From the NCBI RefSeq assembly GCF_900258485.1, contig NZ_OGVE01000002.1, positions 1-64,000 of the forward strand: a stretch of 64,000 nt of DNA, read 5' to 3'. Every line of letters starts with the position of its first letter. Within the stretch, counting starts at the first letter, position 1. A program made the translations under genes and the position numbers. The DNA comes from Helcococcus massiliensis (lineage in GTDB: Bacteria > Bacillota > Clostridia > Tissierellales > Peptoniphilaceae). Of this stretch, positions 186 through 5,056 are shown in pieces. Under the pieces are notes generated by a model. The model saw nothing but the letters and a program-made list of their open reading frames with translations. It was not told the DNA's origin and did no database searches.

Positions 186-1361
186 TCAAAAATTACCAAT
201 TTCAAAATTATTATCTCTTAACCAATCTATATAATCAGCTAATATCAATGAATTGGTTCTTGATACGGAATGTAATAAGACTACATCACCACTTTTAGTG
301 TTTTTTTGTAAAAAGCTTAAAGATTCGGAAGTAGAAGGTTGATTATCTGTATCCCAATCTTTATAGGCTAATCCCCATAAAATTGTTTTATATCCCATCT
401 TCTTGGCTCCAGCTACAGTTCTTTCACTGAAAACTCCTTCTGCTGGTCTATATAGCTTTGTTGTTGGCAATTCACCTATAATAGACTTATAAATGTCTTC
501 CCATTCTTTGATATCTTGAATTACTCTTTCAGAGGATACTTTTCTTGGGGTTAGGTGCTTATTGGTATGGTTACCAACAATATGTCCTTCTCTTACCATC
601 CTTTTAACTAAATTTGGATTATCTTTAATATAAGATCCTGTTACAAAGAAAACACCTTTTACATTTTTAGCTTTCAATGAATCTAATATATCACTTGTGA
701 TATTTTGGTATTCATAACCATTATCAAAAGTTAAATAAACTTTATTCCCAAAATTATAGTAGCCATTATTTTCTTTTAATACTTTTCTGCCATAGGCACT
801 TGGATGAGACCATGACCAGCCTGTAGTTTCTGTTGATCCAGCTGTTTTAATATTTTTATTGTCAGTAGATTTTCCATTATCCGGTTTAGTAGCTGATGGT
901 TTTTTATTTGATGTTTTTTTATTTGATGCTTTTGCAATTAAGCTTATATTTACCTTGTTTGGATTAATCCAGATACCAGCAACATCAGGGCTTTTACTTA
1001 TATTAATAGCCCCATTTTCATATGTCTTATAAACAAAATACTTGCCTGGACCATAGCTAGAAACTTGATCTTTTCCTTCCATAGCATTAGCGGCATTACT
1101 GAAACCTGAAACTGTCTCTAATATACTTATTTCATCACCACTTGTATATGCCCTCTTGGTCATTTCTTTTTCTGTTTCTTTTTTTGTTTCTTTAATTGTT
1201 TCTTTTACTGTCTCTTCAGTCGTTTCTTCCTTTTGAGTTTCTTTTTTAGTTTCCTCCACTGTTTCCTTAGTTTCCAATTCTGATTTAGATTTTTTACCAC
1301 AACTTGTCATTGCCAAAATTCCTGTAATAATGACCATAACTAATAATATTTTATTTTTCAT
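186..1361 (-). CDS. Polysaccharide deacetylase lipoprotein (PdaA/NodB-type)
   Basis: This 391-residue protein is a predicted surface lipoprotein that would remove acetyl groups from peptidoglycan amino sugars. A signal peptide ends in a lipobox with Cys21. Residues about 28-68 form a low-complexity Glu/Lys/Thr linker. About 78-134 looks like a small SH3b-like domain, and 205-391 is a NodB homology domain. The motif TFDNGYE (211-217) is the PdaA-type version of TFDDG, and HTNKH (265-269) supplies the metal-binding histidines. A late LLHSVS carries the conserved catalytic His. PdaA of Bacillus makes the muramic delta-lactam of spore cortex. The fold resembles that group, but a spore role is not implied here. 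It is transcribed alone or after the polymerases, with AAGGAG before the ATG. Confidence 0.85.
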   Translation of the reverse strand: MKNKILLVMVIITGILAMTSCGKKSKSELETKETVEETKKETQKEETTEETVKETIKETKKETEKEMTKRAYTSGDEISILETVSGFSNAANAMEGKDQVSSYGPGKYFVYKTYENGAINISKSPDVAGIWINPNKVNISLIAKASNKKTSNKKPSATKPDNGKSTDNKNIKTAGSTETTGWSWSHPSAYGRKVLKENNGYYNFGNKVYLTFDNGYEYQNITSDILDSLKAKNVKGVFFVTGSYIKDNPNLVKRMVREGHIVGNHTNKHLTPRKVSSERVIQDIKEWEDIYKSIIGELPTTKLYRPAEGVFSERTVAGAKKMGYKTILWGLAYKDWDTDNQPSTSESLSFLQKNTKSGDVVLLHSVSRTNSLILADYIDWLRDNNFEIGNF

Positions 1362-1403
1362 AAGAAAACTCCTTAATCTGACTTGCTTTATTATAATATA
1401 TAA

Positions 1404-2612
1404 TTATCTCTCAAATTTTTCATCTCCATATCTCTCATCTAAATCAGGAGAATAGCCTAATTTAACCATATCTTTACCAAAATTATTTTGTAAGTTAAAT
1501 ATAGCCTTGTCTAATTTTGATTTTTTATCTTCGTCCTTAAAATCTGCTAAAAAATTCGTTTGTACATTTGAATCTTTGGTAAGATTTATAGCTCTTAACT
1601 CTAAAAACCTTATAGATTTATCCCATTTATAATTTTCAAATAGGTCTAAGGCTGTATCCCTCAACACTATAGATGAAAAACTCGAATAATCTAAGATTTT
1701 TTGAAAACTTTCTTGTTTTAAATCCTTATCTTTTACACTAATTTGAACTCCCATAGCTTCTAAGTTTTCTTCAATCAGCCTTCTGCTTACCTTTTGGGCT
1801 AATCTATGAAAAACATATCTGATTTCTTCCTTGCTATCTAAGTTTTCAATAAAGGTTCTACCATGTGATATGGATTTAATTGGATCTAGGTGATGAAAAT
1901 CCTTTACTTCACTATTATCCAAACCATTTACTTGGTCCCAAATTTTCTCACCATGACTTCCTAAAATCTTTTCTAATTCTTCTCTTTTAGTTTTAGCTAT
2001 ATCTCCCAGAGAAAATATACCTGCCTCATTTAATTTTTTTACACTAGCTTGCCCTATCCCCATCATATTGGATATTTTCATGGGCCAAACTATTTGCTTA
2101 AAATTGTCTTTTCTTATCTCATTAACTGAATCAGGTCTAGCTATGTCTGAAGCTAGTTTAGCAAAAATTTTATTGAAACTAAGGCCTACACTCACTGTAA
2201 TACCCAACTCATCCTTTATTCTTTGCCTGATGGTATTTGCAATTTCCAAAGGGGTTCCAAATAACTTAGTAGACCCTGTTATATCCAACCAGGCTTCATC
2301 TAAACTGAAAGGCTCAACTTGATTGGTATAGGAATAATAAATCTCCCTAGCCCATATGGAATGCTTTTTATATTCATCATAATGTGGTTCTACTATTTTA
2401 AGGTCTTTACATCTCTTTTTTGCCATCCAAATAGGTTCAGCTGTTTTTATGTTGAAGATTTTAGCCTCTTCTGACTTAGCTAAAACTATACCATGCCTGC
2501 CATCATGACTTGCTGATACAACTAAAGGGATACCCCTAAGCTCTGGTCTTAGCTTCATTTCTATTGAAGCAAAACAATTGTTCATATCTATATGTAAAAT
2601 TTGCCTATTCAT
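1404..2612 (-). CDS. Y-family DNA polymerase (UmuC/DinB-like), copy A
   Basis: A 402-residue translesion polymerase of the ImpB/MucB/SamB family. The first catalytic motif HIDMNNCFASIE has Asp9 and a Phe14 at the steric-gate position. The second motif SLDEAWLD carries the paired Asp-Glu. Fingers and thumb regions (for example GIGQASVKKL, a helix-hairpin-helix) and a little-finger domain follow. The stretch ALDLF resembles a weak sliding-clamp-binding peptide. It lies 28 bp downstream of a paralogue in the same direction, so the two are probably co-transcribed from the promoter near 3870-3980. Its strong AAGGAGGGG Shine-Dalgarno fixes the start. It could equally be called Pol IV-like; the family is clear, the subfamily is not. 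Confidence 0.88.
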   Translation of the reverse strand: MNRQILHIDMNNCFASIEMKLRPELRGIPLVVSASHDGRHGIVLAKSEEAKIFNIKTAEPIWMAKKRCKDLKIVEPHYDEYKKHSIWAREIYYSYTNQVEPFSLDEAWLDITGSTKLFGTPLEIANTIRQRIKDELGITVSVGLSFNKIFAKLASDIARPDSVNEIRKDNFKQIVWPMKISNMMGIGQASVKKLNEAGIFSLGDIAKTKREELEKILGSHGEKIWDQVNGLDNSEVKDFHHLDPIKSISHGRTFIENLDSKEEIRYVFHRLAQKVSRRLIEENLEAMGVQISVKDKDLKQESFQKILDYSSFSSIVLRDTALDLFENYKWDKSIRFLELRAINLTKDSNVQTNFLADFKDEDKKSKLDKAIFNLQNNFGKDMVKLGYSPDLDERYGDEKFER

Positions 2613-2640
2613 ATCCCCTCCTTATAGATATTTTATCACA

Positions 2641-3867
2641 TTATCTCATAGAATTTGGAAGAGTATATATATCTTGGAGATCTGTTGGTAATTTTACATT
2701 TTCTTTCAAGGAAGCAAATGTTATAGAATCTTTCCCATGTTTTTTTCTAATTTCATAAATAGCTTGGTCCAGATTGCTTTTCTTAATTAAGCCATCTTCT
2801 AAAGCAAAAAAATCAAGCTGGGTCTTATCGATGTCAACCAAATATATAGCCCTTATGGCTAGGGCCCTTATAGGTCTAAAGACCTTATAATTTTCAAATA
2901 AATCCATGGCCCTTTCACACAAAATTATAGAAGAATAGGCTGGATAAGAATATTTTTTTTGATAAGAAACAGAATTAAATTCATAATCTCTTATGTGGAT
3001 TTCTATCCCATAGGCCTGGTAGCCATATTGGATTAACCTTTCACATACTTTTAAAGCTAAAACTTGAAAAACATGGTAAACTTCCTCAGCATTTAGTAAA
3101 TCTTCTGTACATGTAGACGAGTTGCCAACAGACTTTATTTCCGGTCTAAATCCCATATCGGCTACTTTTGATTGGTCTTGCCCATTAGCATATAACCAAA
3201 GCTTTTTGCCATTTTTCCCAAGTAGTTTTTCAACAATAGATAATTCTGTATTTGCCAAGTCTCCCAAAGTATATATATTGATTTTATTTAACTTTTTTCT
3301 TGTAGAAGATCCAATACCTAGGATAGAGCTTATGTCCAGAGGCCAAACAATCTTTCTAAATCTTTCATGAGGAATACATGTAATAGCATCAGGCTTTTTC
3401 ATGTCAGATCCAAGTTTAGCAAATATCTTGTTAAAACTAACACCTATACTTACACTTATACCTAATTCTTTTTTCATCCTCTTCCTAATATCTTCTGCAA
3501 TTACATTTGGATTTCCAAATAACTTTTTGGAAGATGTAACATCCAACCAAGCTTCATCTAAACCAAAGGGTTCTACCTGGTTGGTATAGGAATAATATAT
3601 TTCTCTAGCCATTAAGGAGTGCTTTAAATATTGGTCATATTGTGGTGGGACTGTAATCAAATCTGGACATTTCAACTTAGCTTCCCAAATAGTTTCGCCT
3701 GTTTTAACACCTAATTTTTTAGCTTTTTCTGATTTAGCAAGGACTATACCACGTCTTTCATCTACAGACCCACTAACAACCAAGGCCTGTCCTCTAAGCT
3801 TTGGATTTAATTTCATTTCAATAGAAGCATAGCAATTATTCATATCGCAGTGTAAAATATCTCTCAT
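2641..3867 (-). CDS. Y-family DNA polymerase (UmuC/DinB-like), copy B
   Basis: A 408-residue paralogue of the downstream polymerase, with the same domain order. The catalytic motif HCDMNNCYASIE places Asp8 as metal ligand and Tyr13 at the steric gate, where copy A has Phe. The second motif is GLDEAWLD. A helix-hairpin-helix (ILGIGSSTRKKL) and an AMDLF clamp-like peptide are also present. It is the promoter-proximal gene, transcribed divergently from an XRE/ImmA pair across a 129-bp spacer with three palindromes. Damage-linked translesion synthesis is the family function. Regulation by the neighbouring repressor is my inference. Confidence 0.88.
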   Translation of the reverse strand: MRDILHCDMNNCYASIEMKLNPKLRGQALVVSGSVDERRGIVLAKSEKAKKLGVKTGETIWEAKLKCPDLITVPPQYDQYLKHSLMAREIYYSYTNQVEPFGLDEAWLDVTSSKKLFGNPNVIAEDIRKRMKKELGISVSIGVSFNKIFAKLGSDMKKPDAITCIPHERFRKIVWPLDISSILGIGSSTRKKLNKINIYTLGDLANTELSIVEKLLGKNGKKLWLYANGQDQSKVADMGFRPEIKSVGNSSTCTEDLLNAEEVYHVFQVLALKVCERLIQYGYQAYGIEIHIRDYEFNSVSYQKKYSYPAYSSIILCERAMDLFENYKVFRPIRALAIRAIYLVDIDKTQLDFFALEDGLIKKSNLDQAIYEIRKKHGKDSITFASLKENVKLPTDLQDIYTLPNSMR

Positions 3868-3906
3868 AATAACTCCTTGACATAAGCTAATTTTAACCTT
3901 ACTATA

Positions 3907-3975
3907 GTGTCATAGTTAACACTTTTCTAAAGTATGGTGTCTTTTGTAACACTATTATAGTGCTACTAGTGGCAC
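3907..3975. promoter_or_regulatory. Three 16-bp palindromic operator candidates
   Basis: The divergent spacer has three related inverted repeats: GTGTCATAGTTAACAC (3907-3922), GTGTCTTTTGTAACAC (3937-3952) and GTGCTACTAGTGGCAC (3960-3975). They share the pattern GTGYYN-N4-NRRCAC, close to GTGTTA-N4-TAACAC. Centre spacings are 30 and 23 bp. Arrays like this are typical of XRE-repressor operators, so the gene product at 3997 is the obvious candidate ligand, controlling itself and the polymerases. Confidence 0.7.
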
Positions 3976-3996
3976 CTTGTCAATCTAGGAGATTTT

Positions 3997-4374
3997 ATGA
4001 ATTTTTCAGATAAACTAAAAAAATTAAGAAGTCAAAGCCAATTAACCCAAAGTGACTTTGCTAATAAAATAGGAGTAAGCCTTAGAACTTATAAGGCCTA
4101 TGAATTAGGTGAAAGAAGACCTAGAAAGCATGATATATATTTAAAAATCGCAGATATTTATGACTTAGATTTGAATAGTCTAATTACCGATGGAGAAGAT
4201 TTAAAAACTTTAAGTCATATAGAAAATGATTATAAAGATGCAGATGTAATAATAAAGGAAATGCTTGGTCTATTTTCAGGAGGAAAGTTAGACTTAGAAG
4301 ATAAAAAGGCTGTTTTAGATAGTTTAGAAGAAGCTTATTATATAGCAAAAATGAAAGAAGAAAACAATGAATAG
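3997..4374 (+). CDS. XRE-family helix-turn-helix repressor
   Basis: A 125-residue protein whose first 60 residues form a Cro/CI-type helix-turn-helix (SQSDF/TQSDFANKIGVSLRTYKAYELGERRPR). The rest is an acidic helical tail probably used for dimerisation or protease recognition. The start has AGGAG 5 nt upstream. The downstream ImmA/IrrE-like gene overlaps it by 8 bp, which implies translational coupling. In ICEBs1 (ImmR/ImmA) and Deinococcus (DdrO/IrrE), the protease cleaves the XRE partner to derepress targets. By analogy this protein would repress itself and the divergent polymerases. Family is certain; targets are inferred. Confidence 0.85.
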   Translation: MNFSDKLKKLRSQSQLTQSDFANKIGVSLRTYKAYELGERRPRKHDIYLKIADIYDLDLNSLITDGEDLKTLSHIENDYKDADVIIKEMLGLFSGGKLDLEDKKAVLDSLEEAYYIAKMKEENNE

Positions 4375-4882
4375 GTATCATTTTATAGAAGACCAAGCAA
4401 ATAAATTGATTGATAAATACAATACTAGAGACCCCTATACCATTTTGAAGAATCTTGGAGTAGAAATTTTGCCATTTAAAGGAAAAACTAAACTTTTAGG
4501 CATGTATACTCGCATATTAAATACTAGTTTTGTTTTTTATAATCCAGATAATAGTTATGAAATGAAAAAAATGGTCTTTGCTCATGAACTTGGTCATCAC
4601 ATTTTACACCAGGAAGAAGCCTTAAAAGATAAGATATTTGAATTTGAACTATTTAATATTGAAAATAGTTTAGAAACTGAAGCTAACTTATTTGCTTCCC
4701 ACCTATTAATAGACCAAGAGGAAATTCTGGATTTAGCGAATCTAGATTATACTTATGATCAAATAGCAGCTTCTCTAAATGTTAATGTTAACCTGCTGTT
4801 ATTTAAAATTTCTGAAATGAATAGAAAACAAAACATCTTAAAAACGATTCCAGAAATTAATAATAAATTTTTGAGATCTTAG
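4367..4882 (+). CDS. ImmA/IrrE-type zinc metallopeptidase
   Basis: A 171-residue cytosolic protease of the COG2856 family. The zinc motif is HELGH at residues 73-77 with the third ligand probably Glu105 in EANLFASHLL. No signal peptide or membrane segment is present. The gene overlaps the XRE gene by 8 bp, the usual arrangement for an anti-repressor protease and its repressor substrate. The expected role is to cleave the XRE protein after a stress signal and switch on genes behind the palindromic operators. The C-terminal half has no sensor domain I can name. Confidence in the family is high; the signal is unknown. Confidence 0.85.
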   Translation: MNRYHFIEDQANKLIDKYNTRDPYTILKNLGVEILPFKGKTKLLGMYTRILNTSFVFYNPDNSYEMKKMVFAHELGHHILHQEEALKDKIFEFELFNIENSLETEANLFASHLLIDQEEILDLANLDYTYDQIAASLNVNVNLLLFKISEMNRKQNILKTIPEINNKFLRS

Positions 4883-4974
4883 ATTAAATGATGTATAAAA
4901 TATGTATACTTATAAAATAGTATTGGAGAATAGGCCATCCTATCTTACCAATCAACCTCCGAGATAAGCTTTTG

Positions 4975-5049
4975 TGTTCATTACCTAAGTTAGGAGAGCG
5001 TCTAGGTGACAATCAGAAAGCATGGGTTCAAGTCACCGATGGCCCACCA
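4975..5049 (+). pseudogene. Decayed tRNA-Val(GAC)-like sequence
   Basis: Seventy-five bases align end to end with a tRNA. They include a D-loop AAGTTAGGA with GAGC, an anticodon arm TCTAG-GTGACAA-TCAGA giving anticodon GAC, a T-loop TTCAAGT and an encoded ACCA end. The D, T and acceptor stems have several mismatches, so it is unlikely to be functional. The better 5' partner for the 3' acceptor strand (ATGGCCC, 5039-5045) is AGGCCAT at 4932-4938. This suggests that about 40 bp were inserted after the acceptor strand. Confidence 0.5.
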
Positions 5050-5056
5050 TCGCATA

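Follow-up and report, generated by a model that had tools for sequence, protein, structure and literature searches.

Inducible mutagenesis is taught as an output of LexA and RecA. Other ways of releasing stress genes are represented by described pairs of a repressor and a peptidase: IrrE/PprI–DdrO of Deinococcus, which operates in radiation and desiccation stress; CapP–CapH of some operons of the cyclic-oligonucleotide-based antiphage signalling system (CBASS); and ImmA–ImmR of the integrative and conjugative element (ICE) ICEBs1 of Bacillus subtilis, with similar pairs in phages. Here we analyse a related pair at positions 1404–4882 of a 64,000-nucleotide stretch of Helcococcus massiliensis DNA (NZ_OGVE01000002.1, positions 1 to 64,000; hereafter the window), where genes for an XRE-family repressor and an ImmA/IrrE/CapP-type zinc metallopeptidase lie divergently to two genes for Y-family translesion polymerases, here called polA and polB. 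We consider it likely that this locus is a chromosomal, dedicated and LexA-independent switch for translesion synthesis, in which repression by XRE is relieved by peptidase cleavage.

The IrrE/PprI–DdrO system shares with the Helcococcus locus the combination of M78 peptidase and XRE repressor, the peptidase fold, the helix-turn-helix (HTH), a chromosomal location and LexA-independent control of DNA repair genes, the last of these being predicted for Helcococcus. However, IrrE carries a GAF-like domain and governs a multi-gene regulon, whereas the Helcococcus peptidase has no such domain and forms one operon with its repressor, and operator sites in front of genes were found only at this locus. 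The translesion cassette of Deinococcus itself is reported to be under LexA/RecA and not DdrO control (PMC8072749). CapP–CapH, likewise encoded by paired genes, provides the closest peptidase fold and, among the named pairs, the closest repressor HTH, but it controls anti-phage operons, whereas the Helcococcus output consists of translesion polymerases without CBASS genes nearby. ImmA–ImmR resembles the locus in its overlapping repressor and peptidase genes, its short single-chain peptidase, its divergent target promoter with several operators and the matching HTH of ImmR; it controls excision and transfer of a mobile element, whereas the Helcococcus module adjoins core genes and is predicted to control host polymerases. 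PolA and PolB fall into the same broad subfamily as the LexA-controlled YqjW/UvrX-type polymerases of Bacillus and of Listeria plasmids, whose POL modules carry LexA boxes (PMC8508797). Unlike these, they have no YqjX/YolD partner gene beside them, and predicted XRE–peptidase sites take the place of LexA boxes. Finally, DdiA of Myxococcus xanthus is an XRE-family regulator of a LexA-independent damage response which affects an error-prone polymerase; it promotes dnaE2 directly or indirectly, and the available part of that report mentions neither a partner peptidase nor a divergent Y-family polymerase (PMC12288472). XRE is not mentioned in a 2026 polymerase survey (PMC12926913). A search of the open-access literature, with subscription papers mostly outside its scope, returned only Deinococcus, ICE, CBASS, Myxococcus and toxin–antitoxin papers on such coupling and no report of an XRE–peptidase pair controlling a Y-family polymerase, which is no proof of novelty; the initial annotation remarked that no described example combining two polymerases with such a pair was known.

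The divergent spacer between polA (2641–3867, minus strand, 408 amino acids) and the XRE gene (3997–4374, plus strand, 125 amino acids) comprises 129 bp (3868–3996). The XRE gene overlaps by 8 bases with the peptidase gene (4367–4882, plus strand, 171 amino acids), and polB (1404–2612, minus strand, 402 amino acids) is the second gene on the polymerase side; all these elements lie where the initial annotation had placed them, and Pfam agrees with their assignment. The polymerase promoter (TTGACA-18-TATAAT; 3954–3983, minus strand) matches the consensus at 12 of 12 positions and that of the XRE–peptidase genes (TTGACA-17-TACTAT; 3877–3905, plus strand) at 10 of 12. As had also been noted initially, the spacer contains three related 16-bp palindromes, which are candidate operators. 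O3 (GTGCTACTAGTGGCAC, 3960–3975) exactly fills the gap between the −35 and −10 elements of the polymerase promoter, O2 (GTGTCTTTTGTAACAC, 3937–3952) lies directly downstream of its −10 element in the start region, and O1 (GTGTCATAGTTAACAC, 3907–3922) directly follows the −10 element of the XRE promoter, a position proposed to serve autoregulation. The middle one, O2, is the weakest, its match being limited to the four outer base pairs, and was missed by an earlier criterion of five out of six arm pairs. The pattern GTGY-N8-RCAC occurs three times in the window, always within this spacer. A count of three palindromes sharing one four-base arm, irrespective of which arm, was reached in none of 5000 dinucleotide shuffles and in none of 1479 other 129-bp segments. 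Operators placed within the promoter recur with different sequences in many other divergent loci, and a polymerase promoter of consensus strength is present at most of 42 such loci. Rfam returned nothing credible for the spacer.

Among the sequence data, covariation between repressor and operator is the strongest argument that the palindromes would be bound by XRE itself. When loci were sorted by the recognition helix of XRE, the palindromes, in classes assigned by eye, sorted likewise: SLRTYKxYE goes with AGTGYYA-N4-TRRCACT, S(L/T/I)K(T/S)ISRYE with AAG(A/T)CA-N5-TG(A/T)CTT, SLRT(I/V)xNYE with ACGCAA-N5-TTGCGT, and RT(V/I)(G/V)SYE with AGGAAGA-N3-TCTTCCT. In the held-out Andreesenia locus, whose helix reads SIRTYKGYE, two AGTG-N10-CACT sites were present as expected, each one mismatch away from the first class, and the later-fetched Tissierella locus (SSKTISRYE) has GGACA-N5-TGTCC, which is close to the second class. 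Elsewhere in the host genome, GTGYYANNNNTRRCAC has one further exact match, which is intragenic like the one-mismatch sites inspected, so that the regulon looks local. A global regulon, or a genome-wide substitute for LexA, is accordingly not supported by the host near-matches inspected. Nor is a global regulon supported in Anaerococcus, where the exact operator matches inspected outside the module appeared to be chance or intragenic occurrences, with a narrow pattern that misses imperfect sites.

The arrangement is not confined to H. massiliensis, and the caveat in the initial annotation that it might lack conservation outside this locus can be set aside. Across 391 evenly sampled genomes of the class there were 68 peptidase matches, of which 22 were located within 2 kb of a polymerase match; gene density would predict about 0.2. 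Of these 22 linked pairs, which represent 12 families, 20 are divergent, at 500–785 bp. In a second collection, 80 loci were fetched through the peptidase alone and polymerases were looked for within the fetched flank. A Y-family polymerase was present in 54 flanks (divergent in 40 and co-directional in one, with UmuC-like polymerases co-directional in 12 and divergent in one) and absent from the other 26. An adjacent XRE partner was found in nearly all loci fetched from genomes. Hosts of the module include Anaerococcus, Aedoeadaptatus, Tissierella, Andreesenia, Faecalibacterium, Solobacterium and Lachnospiraceae bins, and its usual layout places normally one polymerase divergently to the XRE–peptidase pair. 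Within the Peptoniphilaceae a related peptidase occurs in 85 of 130 genomes. It is present in all 31 Anaerococcus species searched, in most of which it adjoins a polymerase of 413–431 amino acids that in most genomes is additional to a canonical DinB encoded elsewhere; in A. octavius the polymerase frame is split. In family f18 (G145, G179, G233, G322, G362, G396) peptidase and polymerase genes are 3.7–6.1 kb apart on the same strand and not divergent.

A second architecture runs in a single direction and consists of XRE, peptidase, a UmuC-like polymerase of 470 amino acids, a protein of 116 or 118 amino acids without a Pfam match that is YolD-like by eye, and a 93-amino-acid DUF5960 protein (L092–L095). 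A YolD-like protein of this kind was encountered in no other version of the module. Helcococcus sueciensis is one of its hosts: there the XRE–peptidase pair accompanies the UmuC-like operon instead (L095). That a single regulatory pair is linked to polymerases of two types points to function and not to a merely shared neighbour. At a further locus (L086 in G077, 238–3428) a gene for a RecD2 helicase replaces the Y-family polymerase; it lies downstream of XRE–peptidase on the same strand and is preceded by an operator, GTGTCAAAGATAGCAC, whose sequence is as expected.

The two regulatory proteins were characterized by sequence profile, conservation and structural model. The peptidase belongs to PF06114 (Peptidase_M78; 9.5e-17, above cut-off), and its HELGHH motif (H73, E74, H77) and E103 are invariant across 28 sequences. 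Its AlphaFold2 (AF2) model (pLDDT 89.7) superimposes best on CapP (Z 14.3, root-mean-square deviation 3.0 over 145 residues), followed by IrrE (Z 11.6) and PprI with single-stranded DNA (ssDNA; Z 10.8), while unrelated structures begin at Z 6.6. The protein comprises only the peptidase and HTH part and ends at residue 171, with no GAF-like domain. XRE has an N-terminal HTH (PF01381, HTH_3; PF12844, HTH_19), and the modelled HTH matches CapH (7t5u, Z 11.0), ImmR and DdrO at Z 10.6–11.0; many unrelated HTH proteins score almost equally, so this match confirms the fold only. The best full-length match by sequence profile is the repressor of phage phi106 (9sf2). In the C-terminal part, AF2 predicts helices 70–95 and 100–124 with an invariant Gly-Gly (residues 95–96) at the turn, and structure comparison assigned this part to no clear family. 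PADLOC matched no more than the peptidase and HTH domains that such systems have in common.

Taking these data together, we propose that an XRE dimer bound to O3 and O2 would keep both polymerase genes off, and that XRE on O1 would adjust expression of its own operon. Once activated, the peptidase would cut XRE, whose loss would allow the strong promoter to fire, and PolA and PolB would be made until XRE accumulates again. Repression of the polymerase genes by XRE is well supported by the DNA and protein sequences, and cleavage of XRE by the peptidase is suggested by analogy to the described pairs. Cleavage of DdrO occurs in the loop that joins helices 7 and 8, its last two (PMC8072749), which suggests an equivalent cut in XRE, most likely in the loop near Phe93-Ser94-Gly95-Gly96. 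As for the trigger, ssDNA is reported to activate both PprI and CapP, stimulating in the latter case cleavage of CapH (PMC10904395). By analogy, DNA damage sensed as ssDNA is the likeliest signal in Helcococcus, with roughly an even chance of being the right one.

The alternative that survives best accepts repression by XRE but assumes that the peptidase responds to zinc or redox conditions, such as exposure of an anaerobe to oxygen, or to another cue, and that the polymerases serve stress mutagenesis or the repair of oxidised DNA. A zinc/redox trigger as in IrrE ranks second among the candidate signals: in Deinococcus, redox signalling is reported to activate IrrE by way of zinc (PMC7907104), the zinc model also appears in PMC8072749, and the absence of a GAF-like domain from the Helcococcus peptidase is compatible with such a cue. 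Against it stand the ssDNA activation of PprI and of CapP, which has the closest fold, and the nature of the outputs, which are lesion-bypass polymerases. On balance we regard this alternative as rather unlikely.

Much less probable is the notion that the XRE–peptidase pair is a toxin–antitoxin-like or mobile-element immunity module which happened to land beside the polymerases. COG2856–Xre pairs have indeed been catalogued as toxin–antitoxin-like and mobile (PMC2701414), and related peptidases with 30–43% identity occur in phage and plasmid records. Moreover, a near-constant version, with a peptidase of 189 amino acids and its XRE, is spread over Anaerococcus, Peptoniphilus, Neofamilia, a Streptococcus gallolyticus assembly and a viral contig (L202, L209, L210, L212, L214, L216, L217, L219), which suggests a recently spread mobile element. 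In H. massiliensis, however, the right-hand flank is made up of core genes for about 30 kb (HU, a PrsA-like foldase, Mfd, Pth, Prs, GlmU and MurC), in keeping with the chromosomal location claimed initially. No integrase, conjugation or phage genes were found over these 30 kb, a one-sided test in that the contig ends 1.4 kb away on the left. The divergent layout maintained over 12 families is likewise unlike a passing element, and so is the location of operators in the polymerase promoter.

Conventional control, with the polymerases as ordinary LexA/SOS genes and XRE–peptidase as an unrelated or merely autoregulated neighbour, is very improbable. The host does encode a LexA of 208 amino acids with a box (AGAACATTTGTTCT) upstream of lexA itself, and orthologous polymerases elsewhere bear LexA boxes. 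Yet neither half of the box (GAAC-N4-GTTC) occurs in the 129-bp spacer, whose palindromes are located in the polymerase promoter, and the divergent linkage extends over 12 families including Anaerococcus, where the DNA-binding domain of LexA was not found in 31 genomes. LexA-profile matches in this genus were patchy and mainly confined to the S24 peptidase part, with none in 11 genomes. An exact LexA box precedes 6 of 16 polymerase genes without a neighbouring XRE–peptidase pair as compared with 4 of 69 with such a pair (counts from related genomes and thus not independent), which suggests that one and the same polymerase type is controlled by LexA in certain lineages and by XRE–peptidase in others. 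In distant Clostridia, the spacers of L187, L193, L198 and L213 contain CGAAC/GTTCG-like operators next to XRE helices of the RTIQNYE/RSIQNYE type; these sites may reflect either LexA control or convergence of XRE on a similar site. The LexA-independent repressor switch put forward in the initial annotation is favoured by the operators within the promoter, by helix covariation and by the spacer without a LexA box. Least credible is a role of XRE as an activator whose cleavage shuts the polymerases off, because an operator between −35 and −10 is repressor geometry and a perfect consensus promoter needs no activator, even if XRE-family proteins are capable of activation and DdiA of Myxococcus is reported to activate dnaE2 directly or indirectly (PMC12288472).

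The divergent arrangement occurs in no fewer than twelve families of anaerobes, and the bacteria that possess the module therefore probably switch on mutagenic repair without LexA. More tentatively, peptidase–XRE might have replaced LexA over translesion polymerases in many Clostridia families and, in Anaerococcus with its missing LexA DNA-binding domain, might be a main route from damage to mutagenesis; we judge this wider proposal to fall a little short of evenly balanced. If the switch works as proposed, a large group of anaerobes, among them the human-associated genera Anaerococcus and Peptoniphilus relatives and, for the UmuC-like version, Faecalibacterium, uses proteolysis of a repressor to govern error-prone polymerases, a form of control that would escape SOS inhibitors and predictions based on LexA. 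The system is compact, and each stage, from signal perception by the peptidase through cutting of the repressor to production of the polymerases, is directly measurable; the lineages which keep one polymerase type under either LexA or XRE–peptidase offer a natural comparison.

Several points weigh against the proposed switch. XRE binding and repression, cleavage, its site and its trigger are all steps that we infer, and with a peptidase devoid of a GAF-like sensor domain the signal is not deducible from the protein. The operator classes stem from the first set of loci, and the held-out test amounts essentially to one genome, with Tissierella fitting in part. A per-locus shuffle test restricted to the 17–18-nt promoter spacers, which has low power, was not significant (mean p of about 0.4). 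The 26 loci without a flanking polymerase imply that the pair can serve other targets, and A. vaginalis and A. obesiensis retain XRE–peptidase with the polymerase gone. In addition, the distant loci L185, L187 and L322 carry GAAC-N4-GTTC-like sites that are possibly LexA boxes.

PolA (PF00817, 1.7e-40) and PolB (PF00817, 7.7e-43; PF11799, 1.9e-17) are both intact, contain IMS and IMS_C domains by Pfam and keep the catalytic motif (LDEAWLD in PolB). They are 52% identical in pairwise comparison and match the phage family phrog_1268. The best NCBIfam model for PolA is NF002848/PRK03103, with a score under its cut-off, and a QLDFF sequence close to its C-terminus resembles, by eye, a clamp-binding motif. 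No other Y-family polymerases were found in the 1.36-Mb host genome, which is rated 100% complete. Only 28 bp separate the promoter-proximal polA from polB, which suggests a single operon transcribed in the direction of decreasing coordinates. In a phylogenetic tree, PolB clusters with the lone H. sueciensis polymerase (support 100/100) and PolA adjoins them (91/88), a placement that makes a duplication within the Helcococcus lineage the most likely origin of the two-polymerase form. The combination of two polymerases with the pair, emphasized in the initial annotation, is real at this locus but not typical: among the loci fetched, a tandem polymerase pair was seen only in H. massiliensis.

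A gene for a PdaA-like polysaccharide deacetylase (186–1361) follows polB on the same strand after a gap of 43 bp in which no terminator was called, and it could be co-transcribed with polA and polB; it was not seen at the loci of relatives. At the contig end (positions 1–75 of the window, minus strand) lies a sequence that by eye looks like the beginning of an IS3-type transposase orfA (MAKYSIEFKKKVVNEYLEG...). On the other side, between the peptidase gene and hup, an element of about 118 nt (4932–5050) was called by neither Rfam nor standard ARAGORN. It is closed by a perfect 7-bp stem (GGCCATC/GATGGCC) and has a T-arm-like sequence (GGGTTCAAGTC) and a CACCA end, features that would fit a decayed tRNA gene or a tRNA-like RNA.

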